This document shows positions 32,957-40,827 of a DNA stretch of 64,000 nt, piece by piece. Each line of letters opens with the position of its first letter. Position 1 is the first letter of the stretch. Source of the DNA: Bacillota bacterium (GTDB taxonomy: Bacteria > Bacillota > Clostridia > Peptostreptococcales > Acidaminobacteraceae). The DNA lies in the NCBI GenBank assembly GCA_024636005.1, contig JAGXHV010000032.1, positions 1 to 64,000 of the forward strand, in the 5' to 3' direction. The notes under the pieces were generated by a model. The model saw only the letters and a list, made by a program, of their open reading frames with translations. It did not search any database and was not told the DNA's origin. The position numbers and the translations under genes are program-made.

Positions 32957-32973
32957 ATTAGATCCATTAAGCA

Positions 32974-33010
32974 GATCCCTCTTGCATATTGCAGCAAGGG
33001 GGATTTTTTT
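32974..33010 (+). terminator. Intrinsic terminator
   Basis: ATCCCtCTTGC-atatt-GCAgCAAGGGGGAT followed by T-run. Confidence 0.75.
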
Positions 33011-33125: not shown

Positions 33126-35561
33126 ATGATGTTATCTTACAAAAGAATCAGGAAATTGGTATTTATTGTTATTATGGCTTCATTATTGATGTTTGCTTTT
33201 TTTCGTTTTTCAAACAACACTTTTGATGAATCCAAACTTAATACTGACAACATTATGGGTCATATTGAAAAATTGTCCTCCGATGAGTTTAATGGACGTC
33301 AGGCGGGGTCGAGTGGAGATTTATTGGCACTTGAATACATAAAAGACTATTTCACTATGATTGGGCTTGAACCTGCTGGGATTGATGATGGTTATTTACA
33401 ACCGTTTTCGGTTTTAATTCCCAATGTGGACACTGACCCTGTTTTTGAGATTGAATCAGATACAGGTACGATACTAAAGTCTTTTGAGATGTATAAAGAC
33501 TTTAGTGTCGTGTTGTCCCCAAATGGAGGAGGCATTGATTATTATGGAGAAATGATTCTGGTCGGGAATGATTTTCTAAGAACGGATCCTGAGGAAATCA
33601 AAGACAGAATTGTAGTGATAGAATTCAACTACCTTAGTCCACGTGTCGTGTCTCATATTATTGAGGCCGGTGGAAAAGGTATTCTTTGTAGTACTGATAC
33701 GAATACATTCAATCCGCCACAGACACGTGAGAAGACTAAATCCTTTGATATTTCAGGTAAAACCAATGAATCTATTTTATTGGGATATATTTCATCGGAT
33801 TCATTTCGATATTTGAATTCTATTATAGAAAAGAATGAAGATCGTACTTTGGAAGAACCCATTGGAATCATTGACCGCGTAAGAATCAAGATTGATATTG
33901 ACTATCCAGTAGTCGAAACAGCAAACGTATTGGGTAAAATTAATGGTAAATCATCAAAAGAAAGTATACTCCTTATTACAACAAACATAGATGGTTTGGG
34001 AATTGGAACAGGAGAAAATCACTTCCCAGGGGCCATAAATAATACTTCAGGTATTGCAATAATGCTTGAAATGGCAAGAACTATGACCCAACAAGAGACT
34101 CTACCTGACCAGACGGTTGTCTTCGCAGGCTTCAATGGTCAAGAGCAGCAACTTTCAGGATCGGGTCATTATATCGATTATCCGATCTATCCACTTGAGC
34201 AGACCACGGTCATTCATATTGAATACATCGGAAAAGCATCGTTTGAAGGACTCAGTATTGCCTCAGACCCGATCAATGGTACGATTATCAAAGATAGAAT
34301 CAGCAAATATGCTGATGATATGGGGCTTCTGACTGTGCTGAACCCTACTGGTTATGGTGTGATCACTCAACTTTCGAACAAGAAAGTCCCTTCTGTGCAA
34401 CTTAATGACAGCAGTAGGACACAGAACTCATATGAAGATAGTTTTGAGAATGTAGATGAAAAGACCATTGATAACTCTGCGAATGTCTTACTCCATTATA
34501 TCAAAAGAGATGTTTACAAAGATTCAGGAATTGATTATTTGAATTCCGTGGAGATATTTCTTCTTGTTTTGATTGCATTCGCTGGATTACTTAGTTATTT
34601 GATTGTCAAAGGGTACAATGCTTTTCCAAATAGGATCATTGCAGGCAACCGTATTGAAGATTTATATTTTTCTACACCTGTTTTAATGGTCAGAAAGTTC
34701 TTTACGACAGTACTGCCATATTTTCTAGCAGTATTTATGTTATCGCTTCTCGCAAATATCGATCCTGGAACCAACTTGAAAGTAATCAATGGAGAAGCGA
34801 CCACCAATGTATCCTGGTATTTGACACTAAAGAAAAGTGTGCTCTATTTAAGGTCAATGATTGATTTGGGTACATACCAATCCGATACGGTAGGCAATAT
34901 TTTCAAAGTGATTTACGAGTCTAGCAAACTTAGTATCGCTTTAGTGGCTACATCACTTTTGGTGTCCACAATAGTCGGTATTTTACGTGGAATGGTTGAA
35001 GGGTATAGGTCCAAAAAAGCAAAATTGGGCTCTCTTGCTACGCTCGTCTTTTTTTCTATTCCGGATGTGTTGATTGTATTGCTTGTGCTTTTGGGGTACA
35101 CGTTCATTGCCAGACAGTTCCCAAATATAAAAGACTTTATGCCGCTAAAAGCATTCATATTGCCGCTTTTTACACTTTCAATCATTCCGACGATCTATAT
35201 TTCCAGAATTACATTGATCAGCATTCAAGAAGAGCTCGTCAAAGATTATATTAAAAATGAAAAAGCCAAAGGTTTTTCGAGACGTAAAATAATATTCGTT
35301 GAACTGATGCCTTCAATTTTCTATAAAATTATTGATACCATGCCTACAATCATGACAATGCTTTTATCCAATATGATTGTTGTAGAATACTTGTTCAACT
35401 ATAAAGGCATTTTATATTATTTGATTTATCTGTACGGGCGTCAAGATATTTATAGATTCGTTCCACTTGCGATGACACTTGGACTGATTTTTATTGTCTT
35501 CACCAAAGGGTTTCAGTTGCTTGCAAAAATGATCAATCCACTGAAACGTAAGGGGGTCTAG
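33126..35561 (+). CDS. Fusion: N-terminal TM + extracellular degenerate M28-peptidase-like domain + complete Opp/DppB-type ABC permease
   Basis: M28-like core TANVLGKINGK...LLITTNIDGLG...GAINNTSGIAIMLEMARTM...TVVFAGFNGQEQQLSGSGHYI...IHIEYIG...TQNSYEDSFENVD; then TMs and OppB-like region with permease loop VKDYIKNEKAKGFSRRKIIFVELMPSI. Start ATG 33126 or 33129. Confidence 0.85.
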   Translation: MMLSYKRIRKLVFIVIMASLLMFAFFRFSNNTFDESKLNTDNIMGHIEKLSSDEFNGRQAGSSGDLLALEYIKDYFTMIGLEPAGIDDGYLQPFSVLIPNVDTDPVFEIESDTGTILKSFEMYKDFSVVLSPNGGGIDYYGEMILVGNDFLRTDPEEIKDRIVVIEFNYLSPRVVSHIIEAGGKGILCSTDTNTFNPPQTREKTKSFDISGKTNESILLGYISSDSFRYLNSIIEKNEDRTLEEPIGIIDRVRIKIDIDYPVVETANVLGKINGKSSKESILLITTNIDGLGIGTGENHFPGAINNTSGIAIMLEMARTMTQQETLPDQTVVFAGFNGQEQQLSGSGHYIDYPIYPLEQTTVIHIEYIGKASFEGLSIASDPINGTIIKDRISKYADDMGLLTVLNPTGYGVITQLSNKKVPSVQLNDSSRTQNSYEDSFENVDEKTIDNSANVLLHYIKRDVYKDSGIDYLNSVEIFLLVLIAFAGLLSYLIVKGYNAFPNRIIAGNRIEDLYFSTPVLMVRKFFTTVLPYFLAVFMLSLLANIDPGTNLKVINGEATTNVSWYLTLKKSVLYLRSMIDLGTYQSDTVGNIFKVIYESSKLSIALVATSLLVSTIVGILRGMVEGYRSKKAKLGSLATLVFFSIPDVLIVLLVLLGYTFIARQFPNIKDFMPLKAFILPLFTLSIIPTIYISRITLISIQEELVKDYIKNEKAKGFSRRKIIFVELMPSIFYKIIDTMPTIMTMLLSNMIVVEYLFNYKGILYYLIYLYGRQDIYRFVPLAMTLGLIFIVFTKGFQLLAKMINPLKRKGV

Positions 35562-35563
35562 CC

Positions 35564-37825
35564 ATGAAAAAAATGAATCTGCCACTTTTGCTGGGTAGCG
35601 TAGTTTTGATAGTGATCCTTTTGGTGATGATGTTTCCAGAAATGTTTGTCGATCAAAGTCCCTATACTATACAACATACGAGATTTCTTCATGGAGATGG
35701 GAAACTTTACATTGAAAGAGCACCGTTTCCTCCGGCCAAAGATTTTATACTTGGAAGTGATCATTTGGGTCGGGATATATATAGTTACATTATTTATGGT
35801 ACCCGTCTAACTATAACGCTCAGTGTGATGATTGCCATAGGACAATTCTTGGTGGCAATACCGATGGCATTATACGCCGGTTTCGGAAATCGAGTTGCCA
35901 AATCTGTCATATTGCAGACTGGTGTGATTTTTTCTGCTATCCCAGCATTGCTGATTGCCATAATAGTATTGAAACTGGACTTTTTCGTTGGACTTGAGAA
36001 ACAAAAATCCATAATTGCCTTTATTGTTGTTTTAACAAGCGTGAGCTGGCCAAGGCTTGCGGGTCTGATTTTAGAAAGAGTAGAAGCGATACTTACTCAG
36101 CCGTTTATCCGAGGGGAAGTCGCTATTGGAAAAAGATATTTCAAAATCGCGATGGAGAATGTTTTACCACATTTGGCTCCAGAGATGATCATTTTGTTTT
36201 TTATGGAAATCGCACGAAACCTGTCTATGATGATGCAACTTGGAATATTTGCGGTATTTGTTGGAAATTTAGGTTTGATCAGTGATGCTTCGGCGGGTAT
36301 CCCTATCAATTTGACTGTAAGTTTTGAACCTGAGTGGGCAAGTATGCTGAGTACATCCAGAACTTTAATCAGTACAGCGCCTTGGGCGATAATTTATCCC
36401 GCACTGGCTTTCTTCATCAGCGTACTCGGGTTTAATTTGTTTGGAGAAGGGCTTAGAAATACCATGCAAAAAAAAGATTCTCGTGCTGTTTTACTGTTTA
36501 GAAAAATAATTTCATTCGATTTTAAGTATATTTGGAGAAATAGTGAAAAAAAAATAAAAGTGAAAATGGCCATTTGGACAATCGCCTTCACATTTTTATT
36601 AGGGCTGTTTACTTGGATCAACAACGAAGATTACAGTATCGGGTACAGGACCGATTCATCAGAATTGCCTGAACAGGTTGTCATTGGTACCGAATCTGCA
36701 GTTAAAACCGCGAATTATATCGCAACCAAGATGTCCGAAATGGGAATTGAACCAATAAAAAACGAAAGTTATTTGATGGGTTATGATATTGGACCATCTT
36801 ACCTCATTGAATCTCAATTGTTGAGGCTGAACGTCCCAGGAACCCCCATTGAATTAAAAAAAGATTCGGATTATGCATTTATGACCTCAGGCAATATAAG
36901 TGAAACCGGACCTATTTATGATGCAACACGAGAGGATATGTTTGATCTCCAGGATTATAGTCAATTTGAAGGTCATTATGTTTTACTGGATAAATCCTAC
37001 TACAACGATAGTGCAATTGGATATTTCATTGACAACATCACTCAAAATGTCAATATTAAAGGCATCCTACTTATAGCGAATAAAGATGAGAAGCTTGAAA
37101 ATGTTATTGTTCATGCGAGCGAGGAATTGGCGGTTATAATCGTTTCCAGAGAGGCTTCAAAAAAAATGATTGAATATCCAGACGTTAGCATTACCATCGA
37201 AACTGTGGTTAAACCCATTGATTCAATGGGTTACAATGTCGTTGGAATCTATAAGGGGACCGATAAGAACATAGGAGATGAAGCCATCGTCATCGGAATG
37301 AATTACAATTACCTTGAGAGCAACAATAAAGAAGTTCTTGAATTTAATCTCAAATTGATGGAAAAACTTTGTGGTCTCGCTACCAACAAGAGGTCCATTA
37401 TTTTCATGTTCTTGGATGGTACCATCAATGAAGAACAACACGGTATACACTATATTGCTCAGGATTTCCCATACAGTTCTCAAAAAGTTCAAGTATACAT
37501 CGACCTTACAGGGATTCGAACCACAGAATTTGGAAAAGTGGAGTTTAGTACTGCTCAAGCACCAATCACAAGACAATTTTCGTGGAGTCTTGGGCATCAT
37601 CTCAATAAAGAACTGAATAACAAAGATTTTGATCTCCAGCAGCTTGAGGCTATGTTTATTAATGGGGAGTACTATTTTACGGGCAGTATCGCTGATAACG
37701 CTCTCTTCTGGAACCGCGGCATGCCAACCATCATCATCGGAACCTTGCGAGCTGAAGAAAACAAGAAAAATCTTGAGGATCTAGGTGCTATCATTCTTGA
37801 AGTCATAAGTAAAAACAACTATTAA
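35564..37825 (+). CDS. Fusion: Opp/DppC-type ABC permease + extra TM + C-terminal degenerate M28-like domain
   Basis: LGSDHLGRDIYSYIIYGTRLTITL, permease loop TQPFIRGEVAIGKRYFKIAMENVLPHLAPE; extra TM MAIWTIAFTFLLGLFTWI; tail YNVVGIYKGTDKNIGDEAIVIGMNYNYLE...SIIFMFLDGTINEEQHGIHYIAQDFP...VYIDLTGI. Confidence 0.82.
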   Translation: MKKMNLPLLLGSVVLIVILLVMMFPEMFVDQSPYTIQHTRFLHGDGKLYIERAPFPPAKDFILGSDHLGRDIYSYIIYGTRLTITLSVMIAIGQFLVAIPMALYAGFGNRVAKSVILQTGVIFSAIPALLIAIIVLKLDFFVGLEKQKSIIAFIVVLTSVSWPRLAGLILERVEAILTQPFIRGEVAIGKRYFKIAMENVLPHLAPEMIILFFMEIARNLSMMMQLGIFAVFVGNLGLISDASAGIPINLTVSFEPEWASMLSTSRTLISTAPWAIIYPALAFFISVLGFNLFGEGLRNTMQKKDSRAVLLFRKIISFDFKYIWRNSEKKIKVKMAIWTIAFTFLLGLFTWINNEDYSIGYRTDSSELPEQVVIGTESAVKTANYIATKMSEMGIEPIKNESYLMGYDIGPSYLIESQLLRLNVPGTPIELKKDSDYAFMTSGNISETGPIYDATREDMFDLQDYSQFEGHYVLLDKSYYNDSAIGYFIDNITQNVNIKGILLIANKDEKLENVIVHASEELAVIIVSREASKKMIEYPDVSITIETVVKPIDSMGYNVVGIYKGTDKNIGDEAIVIGMNYNYLESNNKEVLEFNLKLMEKLCGLATNKRSIIFMFLDGTINEEQHGIHYIAQDFPYSSQKVQVYIDLTGIRTTEFGKVEFSTAQAPITRQFSWSLGHHLNKELNNKDFDLQQLEAMFINGEYYFTGSIADNALFWNRGMPTIIIGTLRAEENKKNLEDLGAIILEVISKNNY

Positions 37826-37851: not shown

Positions 37852-38814
37852 ATGAATAATAAACTTCTTGAAGTCACAGACCTGAAAGTGTCTTTTTATC
37901 ACGAAACCGGAAAAGTTCAAGTGGTAAGAGGCTTTGATATGAGCCTCGATAACGGTGAGATTATTGGAATCCTTGGTGAATCCGGAAGTGGAAAGACTGT
38001 TTCCGCTACAGCGATTTTGAAACTGGAAGAAGATGATGTGAGTTGTATTGATTCAGGTACGGTTATTTTTAAAGGGTTGAGTTTATTGGACCTTCCAGAA
38101 ACTGAACTGAGAACAATCAGAGGCAATAGGATTTCGTATATATTTCAAAATGCTTCAAGTGCGCTAAACCCATATAAAAGTATAGGAAAGCAGTTGAGTG
38201 AAGTGCTTAAGAACCATAAATTACGCTATTCAAAGGAGATCGTTCTGAGTACACTCAGCGAAGTTGGGATTGAAGATGTTGAGATGGTCTATGACATGTA
38301 TCCGTTTCAGCTCAGTGGAGGACAAAATCAAAGAATCATGACTGCTCAATGTATCATCAGCAAACCTGATCTGCTGATTGCGGATGAACCAACAAGTTCA
38401 ATAGACGCTTCGTTAAGAAAAATAGTACTCGATTTGCTGAAGGAAATTAATAGGAAAACAAACATGTCGGTAATCATTATTACACATGATTTTGATGTTG
38501 CCAAATATCTATGTAATAGGTTGATAATCATGTATGGTGGTCTTGTTGTTGAAGAAGGCACTATAGATGAAATCTTCAAAGATCCGTTTCATCCTTACAC
38601 AAAGGAATTGATTGTGTGCGCAAGCTCGTTGACTCGTGGAGATGATATCGTCTATACTCTTGAAGGATTTCCACCTACGCCATTTGAATTTGGGAATGAA
38701 TGTCCTTTTGCAAATCGATGCAAGGTGAGGTTGCCTGAATGTACGTCAGGAATTCCACGTACTTTAGAGATTGGAAAGAGGAAAGTGCGCTGCATCAGAT
38801 TTGAAGAGAGGTGA
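37852..38814 (+). CDS. Opp/DppD-type ABC ATPase
   Basis: GESGSGKTVS, QLSGGQNQRIMTAQ, LLIADEPTSSID, C-terminal CPFANRCKVRLPEC cysteine motif typical of OppD/DppD. Confidence 0.93.
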   Translation: MNNKLLEVTDLKVSFYHETGKVQVVRGFDMSLDNGEIIGILGESGSGKTVSATAILKLEEDDVSCIDSGTVIFKGLSLLDLPETELRTIRGNRISYIFQNASSALNPYKSIGKQLSEVLKNHKLRYSKEIVLSTLSEVGIEDVEMVYDMYPFQLSGGQNQRIMTAQCIISKPDLLIADEPTSSIDASLRKIVLDLLKEINRKTNMSVIIITHDFDVAKYLCNRLIIMYGGLVVEEGTIDEIFKDPFHPYTKELIVCASSLTRGDDIVYTLEGFPPTPFEFGNECPFANRCKVRLPECTSGIPRTLEIGKRKVRCIRFEER

Positions 38815-38818
38815 TTTA

Positions 38819-39601
38819 ATGTCTATAATTGCGTTAAAAGTAGAAGGGCTATCCAAACATTTCATAATCAAAAGGAGTGTTTTTTCAAAGAAGATAAAAA
38901 TAGATGCAGTCAAGAAAATTAATTTTGTAGTAAAACAGAATGAATCTATGGGTTTGATTGGTGAGAGTGGTTCAGGCAAAACGACCATAGCAAACATGTT
39001 GCTCAAACTCATTGATTCTAGTGAGGGGAGCATTGAGCTCTTTGGAGTGGATATTACAAATTTGAATGGGGAAGCAATGAGAGCGCATAGAAAAGACATT
39101 CAAATCATCTTTCAATACACCCATGCAGTCTTGGACCCTAAAATGACTATTGAAGAACTGATCAAAGAACCTTTGGTAATCCATCAGATTGTTAAAGAAC
39201 ACGATCTTGATGAAGAAGTGGATAGACTGCTTCAGATGGTGGGCCTTTCCATATTGGAAAGAAAAAAATTCCCATCACAATTGAGTGGAGGACAGAATCA
39301 AAGGATTATAATCGCACGAGCAATAGCCACGAGGGCAAAACTCATCGTTTGTGATGAACCTGTTTCTGCACTCGATGTATCCGTACAGGGCCAGATTTTG
39401 AATCTTTTAGTGAAACTCAAAGAAGAATTGGGACTTACCTATGTATTGATTACTCATGACCTTAGTGTCGTCAAACACATGTGCAATCGCATAGCGGTCA
39501 TGTATCAAGGGGAAATTGTGGAAATTGGAGAAACCGAGAAAGTACTTTCAAATCCTACGAATCCTTACACAAAGAAGTTGATAGCGTCTATTTTAGATTA
39601 A
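38819..39601 (+). CDS. Opp/DppF-type ABC ATPase
   Basis: GESGSGKTTIANMLL, QLSGGQNQRIIIARA, IVCDEPVSALDVSVQGQILNLL; ATG at 38819 after GAGAGG. Confidence 0.92.
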   Translation: MSIIALKVEGLSKHFIIKRSVFSKKIKIDAVKKINFVVKQNESMGLIGESGSGKTTIANMLLKLIDSSEGSIELFGVDITNLNGEAMRAHRKDIQIIFQYTHAVLDPKMTIEELIKEPLVIHQIVKEHDLDEEVDRLLQMVGLSILERKKFPSQLSGGQNQRIIIARAIATRAKLIVCDEPVSALDVSVQGQILNLLVKLKEELGLTYVLITHDLSVVKHMCNRIAVMYQGEIVEIGETEKVLSNPTNPYTKKLIASILD

Positions 39602-39624
39602 AAATGAAAAGGAAGGTGGAAGCA

Positions 39625-40827
39625 ATGGCAATCAAAAATATATCCATTATCGGTATGGGAGCACTTGGCATTCTCTTCGGCCAGCATTTTACTGAGATAA
39701 TGGGAAATCAATCCGTTGCATTTGTTGCGAATGAAAGAAGAATCGAAAAATTTAAGCAAACAAGAGTAAATTGTAATGGTAAAGAGTGTGACTTCAGGAT
39801 GGCATCCGACAGGCTAGAAGATAAGCCTGCAGATTTAGTAATCTTCGCAGTAAAATCCACTGCTCTGGAAGAAGCACTGGAAACTGCAAAACATCAGATT
39901 GGCAAGGATACGATAATCATATCGCTATTAAACGGTATTTCAAGTGAACAAATCATCGGAGCCAGATATGGAATGGAAAAAATTATCCACTGCGTAGCAC
40001 TTGGAATGGATGCAGTCAAGACGGACAATGACCTCACCTATACCAAAATGGGTCAACTGTGTGTGGGCATTTTACCGGATGAAACCGATAAATCCAATCA
40101 ACTGAACGCACTTTGTGAGTTCTTTGATGAAGTTAAACTTCCATACACCAAAGAAGATGATATCCTACACAGATTATGGAGCAAGTTCATGCTCAATGTC
40201 GGCGTGAATCAGGCAGTCATGGTCTACGAAGGTACATATGAGACGATTCAAAAACCTGGGGAAGCCAGAGAAGTGATGATCGGGGCCATGCGTGAAGTGA
40301 TGGAACTCGCTCATTATGAGGGGGTAAATCTTACCATTGATGATCTTAAGGCTTACGTTGATTTGATGGGTACGCTTTCACCAGAAGGGATGCCATCCAT
40401 GCGTCAGGATGGTCTTGCATCAAGAAAATCCGAAGTGGAATTGTTTTCTGGGACAGTTTTGAGACTCGCGGAAAAACATAATTTGACGCTTCCAATCAAC
40501 GCAATGCTTTATGAAAAGATTCGCGATATGGAAAGAGGCAAAGTTGTACAGTCAGGATTTTTTGATGCTTCAGAAAACCATCTGGATGATGTGCTTGCTG
40601 AGCTTAAGGCACATTCTGATCATGACGACAAAATAATCAGAAGCATAATACAGTATGAGATTGAAAAGTCTTATTCGGTGGATGCAAAAATAAAAATCAT
40701 CCAGTGTTTTGACCAAATAGATCCAACTCCTGATCTGAAATTAGAAATGACCCAATTTGTCAGAGCAAATGCCAATCATCCCAACAGCAAAGTCAGACGA
40801 GAAGCGAGAATATATTTGAATGGATAG
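39625..40827 (+). CDS. Ketopantoate reductase (ApbA/PanE)-family protein with C-terminal extension
   Basis: ISIIGMGALGILFGQHF; ICBP-type LHRLWSKFMLNVGVNQ; ATG 39625 after GGAAGGTGG. The track's start at 39481 lies inside the oppF-like gene. Confidence 0.83.
   Translation: MAIKNISIIGMGALGILFGQHFTEIMGNQSVAFVANERRIEKFKQTRVNCNGKECDFRMASDRLEDKPADLVIFAVKSTALEEALETAKHQIGKDTIIISLLNGISSEQIIGARYGMEKIIHCVALGMDAVKTDNDLTYTKMGQLCVGILPDETDKSNQLNALCEFFDEVKLPYTKEDDILHRLWSKFMLNVGVNQAVMVYEGTYETIQKPGEAREVMIGAMREVMELAHYEGVNLTIDDLKAYVDLMGTLSPEGMPSMRQDGLASRKSEVELFSGTVLRLAEKHNLTLPINAMLYEKIRDMERGKVVQSGFFDASENHLDDVLAELKAHSDHDDKIIRSIIQYEIEKSYSVDAKIKIIQCFDQIDPTPDLKLEMTQFVRANANHPNSKVRREARIYLNG

Follow-up and report, generated by a model that had tools for sequence, protein, structure and literature searches.

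The window analysed here, a 64,000-nucleotide stretch of DNA from a clostridial genome, encodes an Opp/Dpp-type ABC transporter in which both permease subunits are fused to predicted extracellular domains with the fold of M28 aminopeptidases, and beside which no gene for a substrate-binding protein (SBP) was found. We consider it somewhat probable (roughly 55%) that this is an SBP-less Opp-type importer, in which the paired M28-fold ectodomains receive substrate and so replace the SBP. The anatomy of the transporter is well supported; its function and the direction of transport we infer. Coordinates are collected in Table 1.

The first gene (33126-35561) is a single uninterrupted ORF. Its product runs from a transmembrane (TM) helix through an M28 aminopeptidase fold with a PA insert and a further TM helix to an OppB-type permease. 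Two Pfam domains score above their curated cut-offs: Peptidase_M28 (PF04389) at residues 267-458 (E 2.5e-16), and BPD_transp_1 (PF00528) at residues 618-808 (E 7e-11; 42.6 bits against a cut-off of 26.4). Among NCBIfam models the permease part is closest to Opp2B and its relatives, yet far under the equivalog cut-offs. In an AlphaFold2 model (mean pLDDT 80), residues 33-466 match PA-insert M28 aminopeptidases: comparison with BSAP/YwaD (6hc6/6hc7) gives a VIA Z of 32.7 and an rmsd of 3.3 Å over 376 residues, and the Foldseek TM-score on the target reaches 0.76. The original prediction, an M28-like domain that keeps its fold and lies between a first TM helix and a complete OppB/DppB-like permease, is thereby borne out by profile search and by superposition. 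Two genes joined by an assembly error, the artefact that might have explained such a protein, are ruled out because the identical fusion is found in 26 other genomes. The prediction was nonetheless incomplete: it missed the PA insert, a second M28-like domain, the absent SBP, and the shortened scoop.

That second domain lies on the partner permease. The OppC gene starts 2 bases downstream of the OppB fusion; its product scores 22.7 bits with PF00528, below the cut-off, and also has matches of the Opp2C/NikC type. Its ectodomain of about 400 residues has no Pfam match. In the model of this fusion (pLDDT 75), however, the ectodomain aligns with BSAP (6hc6) at VIA Z 25, and profile comparison with the OppB ectodomain (hhalign) gives a probability of 99.6 and an E-value of 4.5e-24, by which the two ectodomains are judged to be related to each other. 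The OppC copy is the more degenerate: it lacks the GAxDNxSG segment, the window copy has NYN in place of HxD, and the M28 ligand set is absent from every OppC copy examined. For both fusions, helix count and positive-inside charges place the ectodomain outside.

The gene order is B-C-D-F, and both ATPases have complete motifs. A ketopantoate reductase-like (ApbA) gene (39619-40827) begins about 18 bases past OppF, and may share its transcript. Scanning the region for promoters and terminators gave nothing above shuffled sequence, and no regulator gene lies inside the operon. This last point, together with the retention of motifs in both ATPases and both permeases, speaks against the idea that the ectodomains are sensors, in which a ligand on the M28 folds alters the ATPase or signals to the cell while no cargo is delivered. 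M28-fold receptors that have lost their chemistry are known, and the transferrin receptor is among the fold matches, but we hold a purely sensory role to be very unlikely.

Table 1. Features of the operon region (window coordinates; aa, amino acids)
Feature	Coordinates	Strand	Basis or remark
Terminator-like stem before the operon	32973..33006	+	Such sites in the region are no more frequent than in shuffles
OppB-type permease with N-terminal M28-PA pseudo-peptidase ectodomain, 811 aa	33126..35561	+	Pfam, model, VIA
Extra N-terminal TM helix, residues 5-30; KR-rich N-terminus predicted inside	33138..33215	+	
M28 fold with PA insert, residues 31-466, predicted extracellular	33216..34523	+	Pfam, VIA, Foldseek
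N287 at the H97 metal-ligand position	33984..33986	+	Alignment
N305 at the D117 bridging-ligand position	34038..34040	+	Alignment
Q339-E340: E151 general base lost, E152 ligand retained	34140..34145	+	Alignment
E366 at the D179 ligand position	34221..34223	+	Alignment
N434 at the H256 ligand position	34425..34427	+	Alignment
Second extra TM helix, residues 474-499, bringing the chain back to the cytoplasm	34545..34622	+	
Six-helix OppB core, residues 517-808, with EAA-like loop	34674..35549	+	
Shortened TM1-TM2 loop; scoop region of canonical OppB/DppB cut to a predicted beta-hairpin	34758..34898	+	
OppC-type permease with C-terminal M28-PA-like ectodomain, 753 aa	35564..37825	+	Profiles, model, VIA
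OppC core, residues 1-305	35564..36478	+	VIA Z 23 to E. coli DppC (8z1x)
Extra TM helix, residues 329-352, taking the chain outside	36548..36619	+	
Second M28-PA-like ectodomain, residues 355-753, without the M28 ligand set	36626..37822	+	VIA, hhalign, alignment
OppD-type ATPase: Walker A, signature, Walker B, H-loop, oligo_HPY	37852..38814	+	
OppF-type ATPase, all motifs, shortened C-terminus	38819..39601	+	Start set at ATG 38819

The prevailing view is that type I ABC importers require an SBP, both to deliver cargo and to switch on the ATPase. The E. coli DppBCDF complex shows no ATPase activity without DppA, which switches the ATPase on; the TM1-TM2 segment of DppB holds a scoop that enters the DppA cleft and docks DppA (PMC12136057). 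In the fusion family both elements are missing. No SBP-like ORF was found in any fetched operon neighbourhood, and the aligned TM1-TM2 segment spans 36-61 residues, against 65-72 in canonical OppB. The missing part falls at the scoop; every family member has it shortened, and canonical OppB proteins encoded by these or related genomes retain it. Because DppBCDF depends on DppA, docked by the scoop, a relative whose ATPases are intact and which lacks both SBP and scoop would need another trigger, for which the fused ectodomains are the obvious candidate. The missing SBP, taken with dead M28 domains on both permeases, thus suggests that these domains took over the job of the absent substrate-catching protein.

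An SBP encoded elsewhere could still serve the transporter, with the ectodomains as accessories such as docking platforms or stabilisers. SBP_bac_5 proteins do occur elsewhere in all 20 of the fusion genomes searched (2 to 31 per genome), and the pocket of the M28 domain is not specially conserved (see below). Loss of the scoop docking region in every member, and the lack of an SBP near the operon at any locus, make this unlikely. The absence of an SBP would also suit an exporter, in which a peptide or amine leaving the cell is received, processed, or retained by the ectodomains; such a role is possible because SapBCDF, a permease set of the Opp type, is reported to export putrescine (PMC12772348). 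The transmembrane domains, however, are closest to those of peptide and nickel importers (for OppC, the match to DppC listed in Table 1), and an intact M28 aminopeptidase in relatives better fits the scavenging of outside peptides, so that we regard export as quite improbable.

Is the window ectodomain itself a peptidase? Ligands are numbered as in the Vibrio aminopeptidase, an assignment based on that enzyme and on the intact orthologues. At H97, D99, D117, E151, E152, D179, H256, and D260 the window protein reads N287, D289, N305, Q339, E340, E366, N434, and D438: four of the five metal ligands (H97N, D117N, D179E, and H256N) and the general base (E151Q) are replaced. D289 (D99) is invariant across the family alignment. 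The residue calls made originally (NID for HxD, Asn for the bridging Asp, QE for EE, Glu for the following Asp, and Asn for the late His) fall at the right positions. Because the two-metal ligand set and the catalytic Glu are lacking, the window protein is, judged by its residues, no M28 peptidase, although the M28 fold is present.

The relatives tell a more varied story. Four orthologues from one family (L039-L042) have H, D, D, E, E, D, H, and D at every position of the OppB ectodomain, the same intact residues as stand-alone M28 proteins of the window's genome and of other relatives; they are the only fusion members with the complete ligand set and both catalytic Glu residues. Loss of chemistry with the fold kept thus stands for the window protein and falls as a general statement. 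Likewise, the expectation that the substitutions are conserved stands for the window's clade, where H97N, E151Q, D179E, and H256N are kept in 5-6 of 6 members, but the four intact orthologues are just the result that had been named as counting against the proposal, and 'all orthologues degenerate' is rejected. Because L039-L042 keep every ligand and both catalytic Glu residues, the predicted dead state is lineage-specific and derived within the family, and the fused ancestor probably had an intact site and was an active peptidase.

Degenerate lineages keep different subsets of the site: H97 in L044; D117 and E151 in L045; E152 and D179 in L037. All of them have lost H256, often to Asn, a pattern consistent with a single initial loss, after which each lineage decayed in its own way. 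That catalysis was lost several times independently is not established by the trees or the AU test. A far outgroup leaves the intact clade nested inside, but a single degenerate clade is not rejected by the AU test (p 0.385); a nearer outgroup of OppC-only fusions separates the degenerate rows from the rest at a weakly supported branch (50/60).

Such heterogeneous replacements could mean that the domain in the window protein is degenerating, with no role of its own, and persists only as a folded tether to the membrane. In the window's clade, conservation of the pocket does not significantly exceed that of the remaining domain core (P = 0.18), and in some lineages (L047, L049, and L050) the pocket positions look randomly decayed. 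Against this reading stand the shared substitutions in the window's clade, the full length of the domains across 27 genomes, and low dN/dS on both ectodomains. The NG86 values, calculated for OppB, OppC, and OppD against the nearest relative (L055, 75-76% identity), are about 0.14 for the OppB ectodomain (0.16/1.15) and about 0.07 for the OppC ectodomain (0.16/2.15), with 0.12/1.13 for the OppB permease; dS is high and near saturation, so the figures are rough and show constraint rather than its exact strength. Both ectodomains are under purifying selection, and mere decay is the least probable of the explanations weighed here.

Searches for the fusion covered the window's family, three other families, the order, the class, and named contigs. 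Counting the window's own, 27 genomes, all of one bacterial class, carry the OppB-M28 fusion. The class survey contributed two fusions from a family in another order (f186, loci L120/L121), and the named contigs with the fusion are labelled Clostridiales, Tissierellales, and Clostridia. In a phylum-wide sample of 398 genomes only the window's genome had it. An OppC fusion adjoins the OppB fusion at every locus examined. OppD and OppF follow at all loci except that of genome G029 (L038); in G024 the contig ends. At L038 (1-17001) both fusions are present, and no OppD or OppF homologue was found within the fetched 17 kb. At another locus (L098:10895-12739), a single ORF of 614 aa joins OppD and OppF.

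Three genomes beyond the 27 have the M28 domain on OppC only, with a plain OppB (L123:870-3245, L126:5227-7638, and L122:8416-10744). These fusions are degenerate, have no SBP nearby, and possibly represent an earlier stage of the architecture. The one in L122 is interrupted by masked bases, and an apparent separate M28 gene there is an artefact of the masked N stretch; its neighbour L123 shows the OppC-M28 fusion. Another family of the order has, in four genomes, a different arrangement: a gene for a degenerate M28-like protein whose C-terminal part holds several TM helices (L101:6493-8610, L102:6018-8276, L127:6653-8749, and L128:7621-9735) lies directly upstream of a standard SBP-OppBCDF operon. 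This is a possible in-trans version of the M28-Opp partnership. The same type of protein is also encoded without Opp genes beside it (L100:7221-9341 and L103:5529-7616).

These observations suggest a model for the SBP-less importer. A four-gene Opp/Dpp-type transporter, working without a separate SBP, would hold its M28-PA domains tethered outside, the N-terminal one on OppB through two added helices and the C-terminal one on OppC through one, and the two would lie together above the pore's external opening. The remodelled M28 groove would bind a peptide or an amino-acid-like ligand, and the ectodomains would deliver substrate and also trigger the ATPase. In the family of L039-L042, the OppB ectodomain is probably still an active peptidase that passes its products to the pore. 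The window's lineage would have given up the chemistry and retained recognition, as in the analogous case of HlyB, whose C39 domain is dead where that of PCAT transporters is active. Ligand recognition by the window ectodomain is itself something we infer, and binding may take place elsewhere than in the M28 groove, because the pocket is not extra-conserved and looks decayed in three lineages.

How does this system relate to known ones? It resembles Opp/Dpp importers (E. coli DppBCDF, 8z1x) in its OppB and OppC cores, in the canonical motifs of OppD and OppF, and in its gene order, but here there is no SBP gene, the scoop region is lost, and each permease bears an M28-PA ectodomain. The core is that of an Opp/Dpp-type transporter, yet the system is outside the standard SBP-dependent Opp systems because both the operon SBP and the scoop are lacking. 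With the M28 aminopeptidases that have a PA insert (BSAP/YwaD; 6hc6, 2ek8), it shares the fold over the whole ectodomain (Z 32 for OppB, 25 for OppC); it differs in the replacement of H97, D117, E151, D179, and H256, and in being embedded in a transporter subunit.

GlnPQ-type importers also carry extracellular ligand domains covalently on the permease, more than one per complex, but there the fused domains are substrate-binding domains (PMC8025302), whereas both ectodomains here match M28-PA end to end. PCAT and HlyB offer a parallel in their C39-like domain, an active peptidase in some members and a dead copy in others, the dead one being needed for substrate recruitment (PMC6363468). That domain, however, is a cytosolic cysteine peptidase on exporters; the domain here is M28, extracellular, and on Opp-type permeases. 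By fold, the window system is a member of neither type. The transferrin receptor and other non-peptidase M28 homologues share the M28-PA fold, a lost active site, and an extracellular receptor role, but these known receptors have no transporter domain. Text searches of open-access literature found no relevant paper on an M28-permease fusion. At slightly less than even odds, the family is a distinct class of ABC importer, in which an M28-fold pair replaced the SBP and whose ancestor was a machine for cleaving peptides outside the cell and taking up the products.

The family appears to work without an SBP, contrary to the need ascribed to type I ABC importers, and lets one ask whether an unrelated fold can replace that protein. 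Moreover, its natural pairs of intact and dead ectodomains on the same chassis bear on how a peptidase becomes a receptor.
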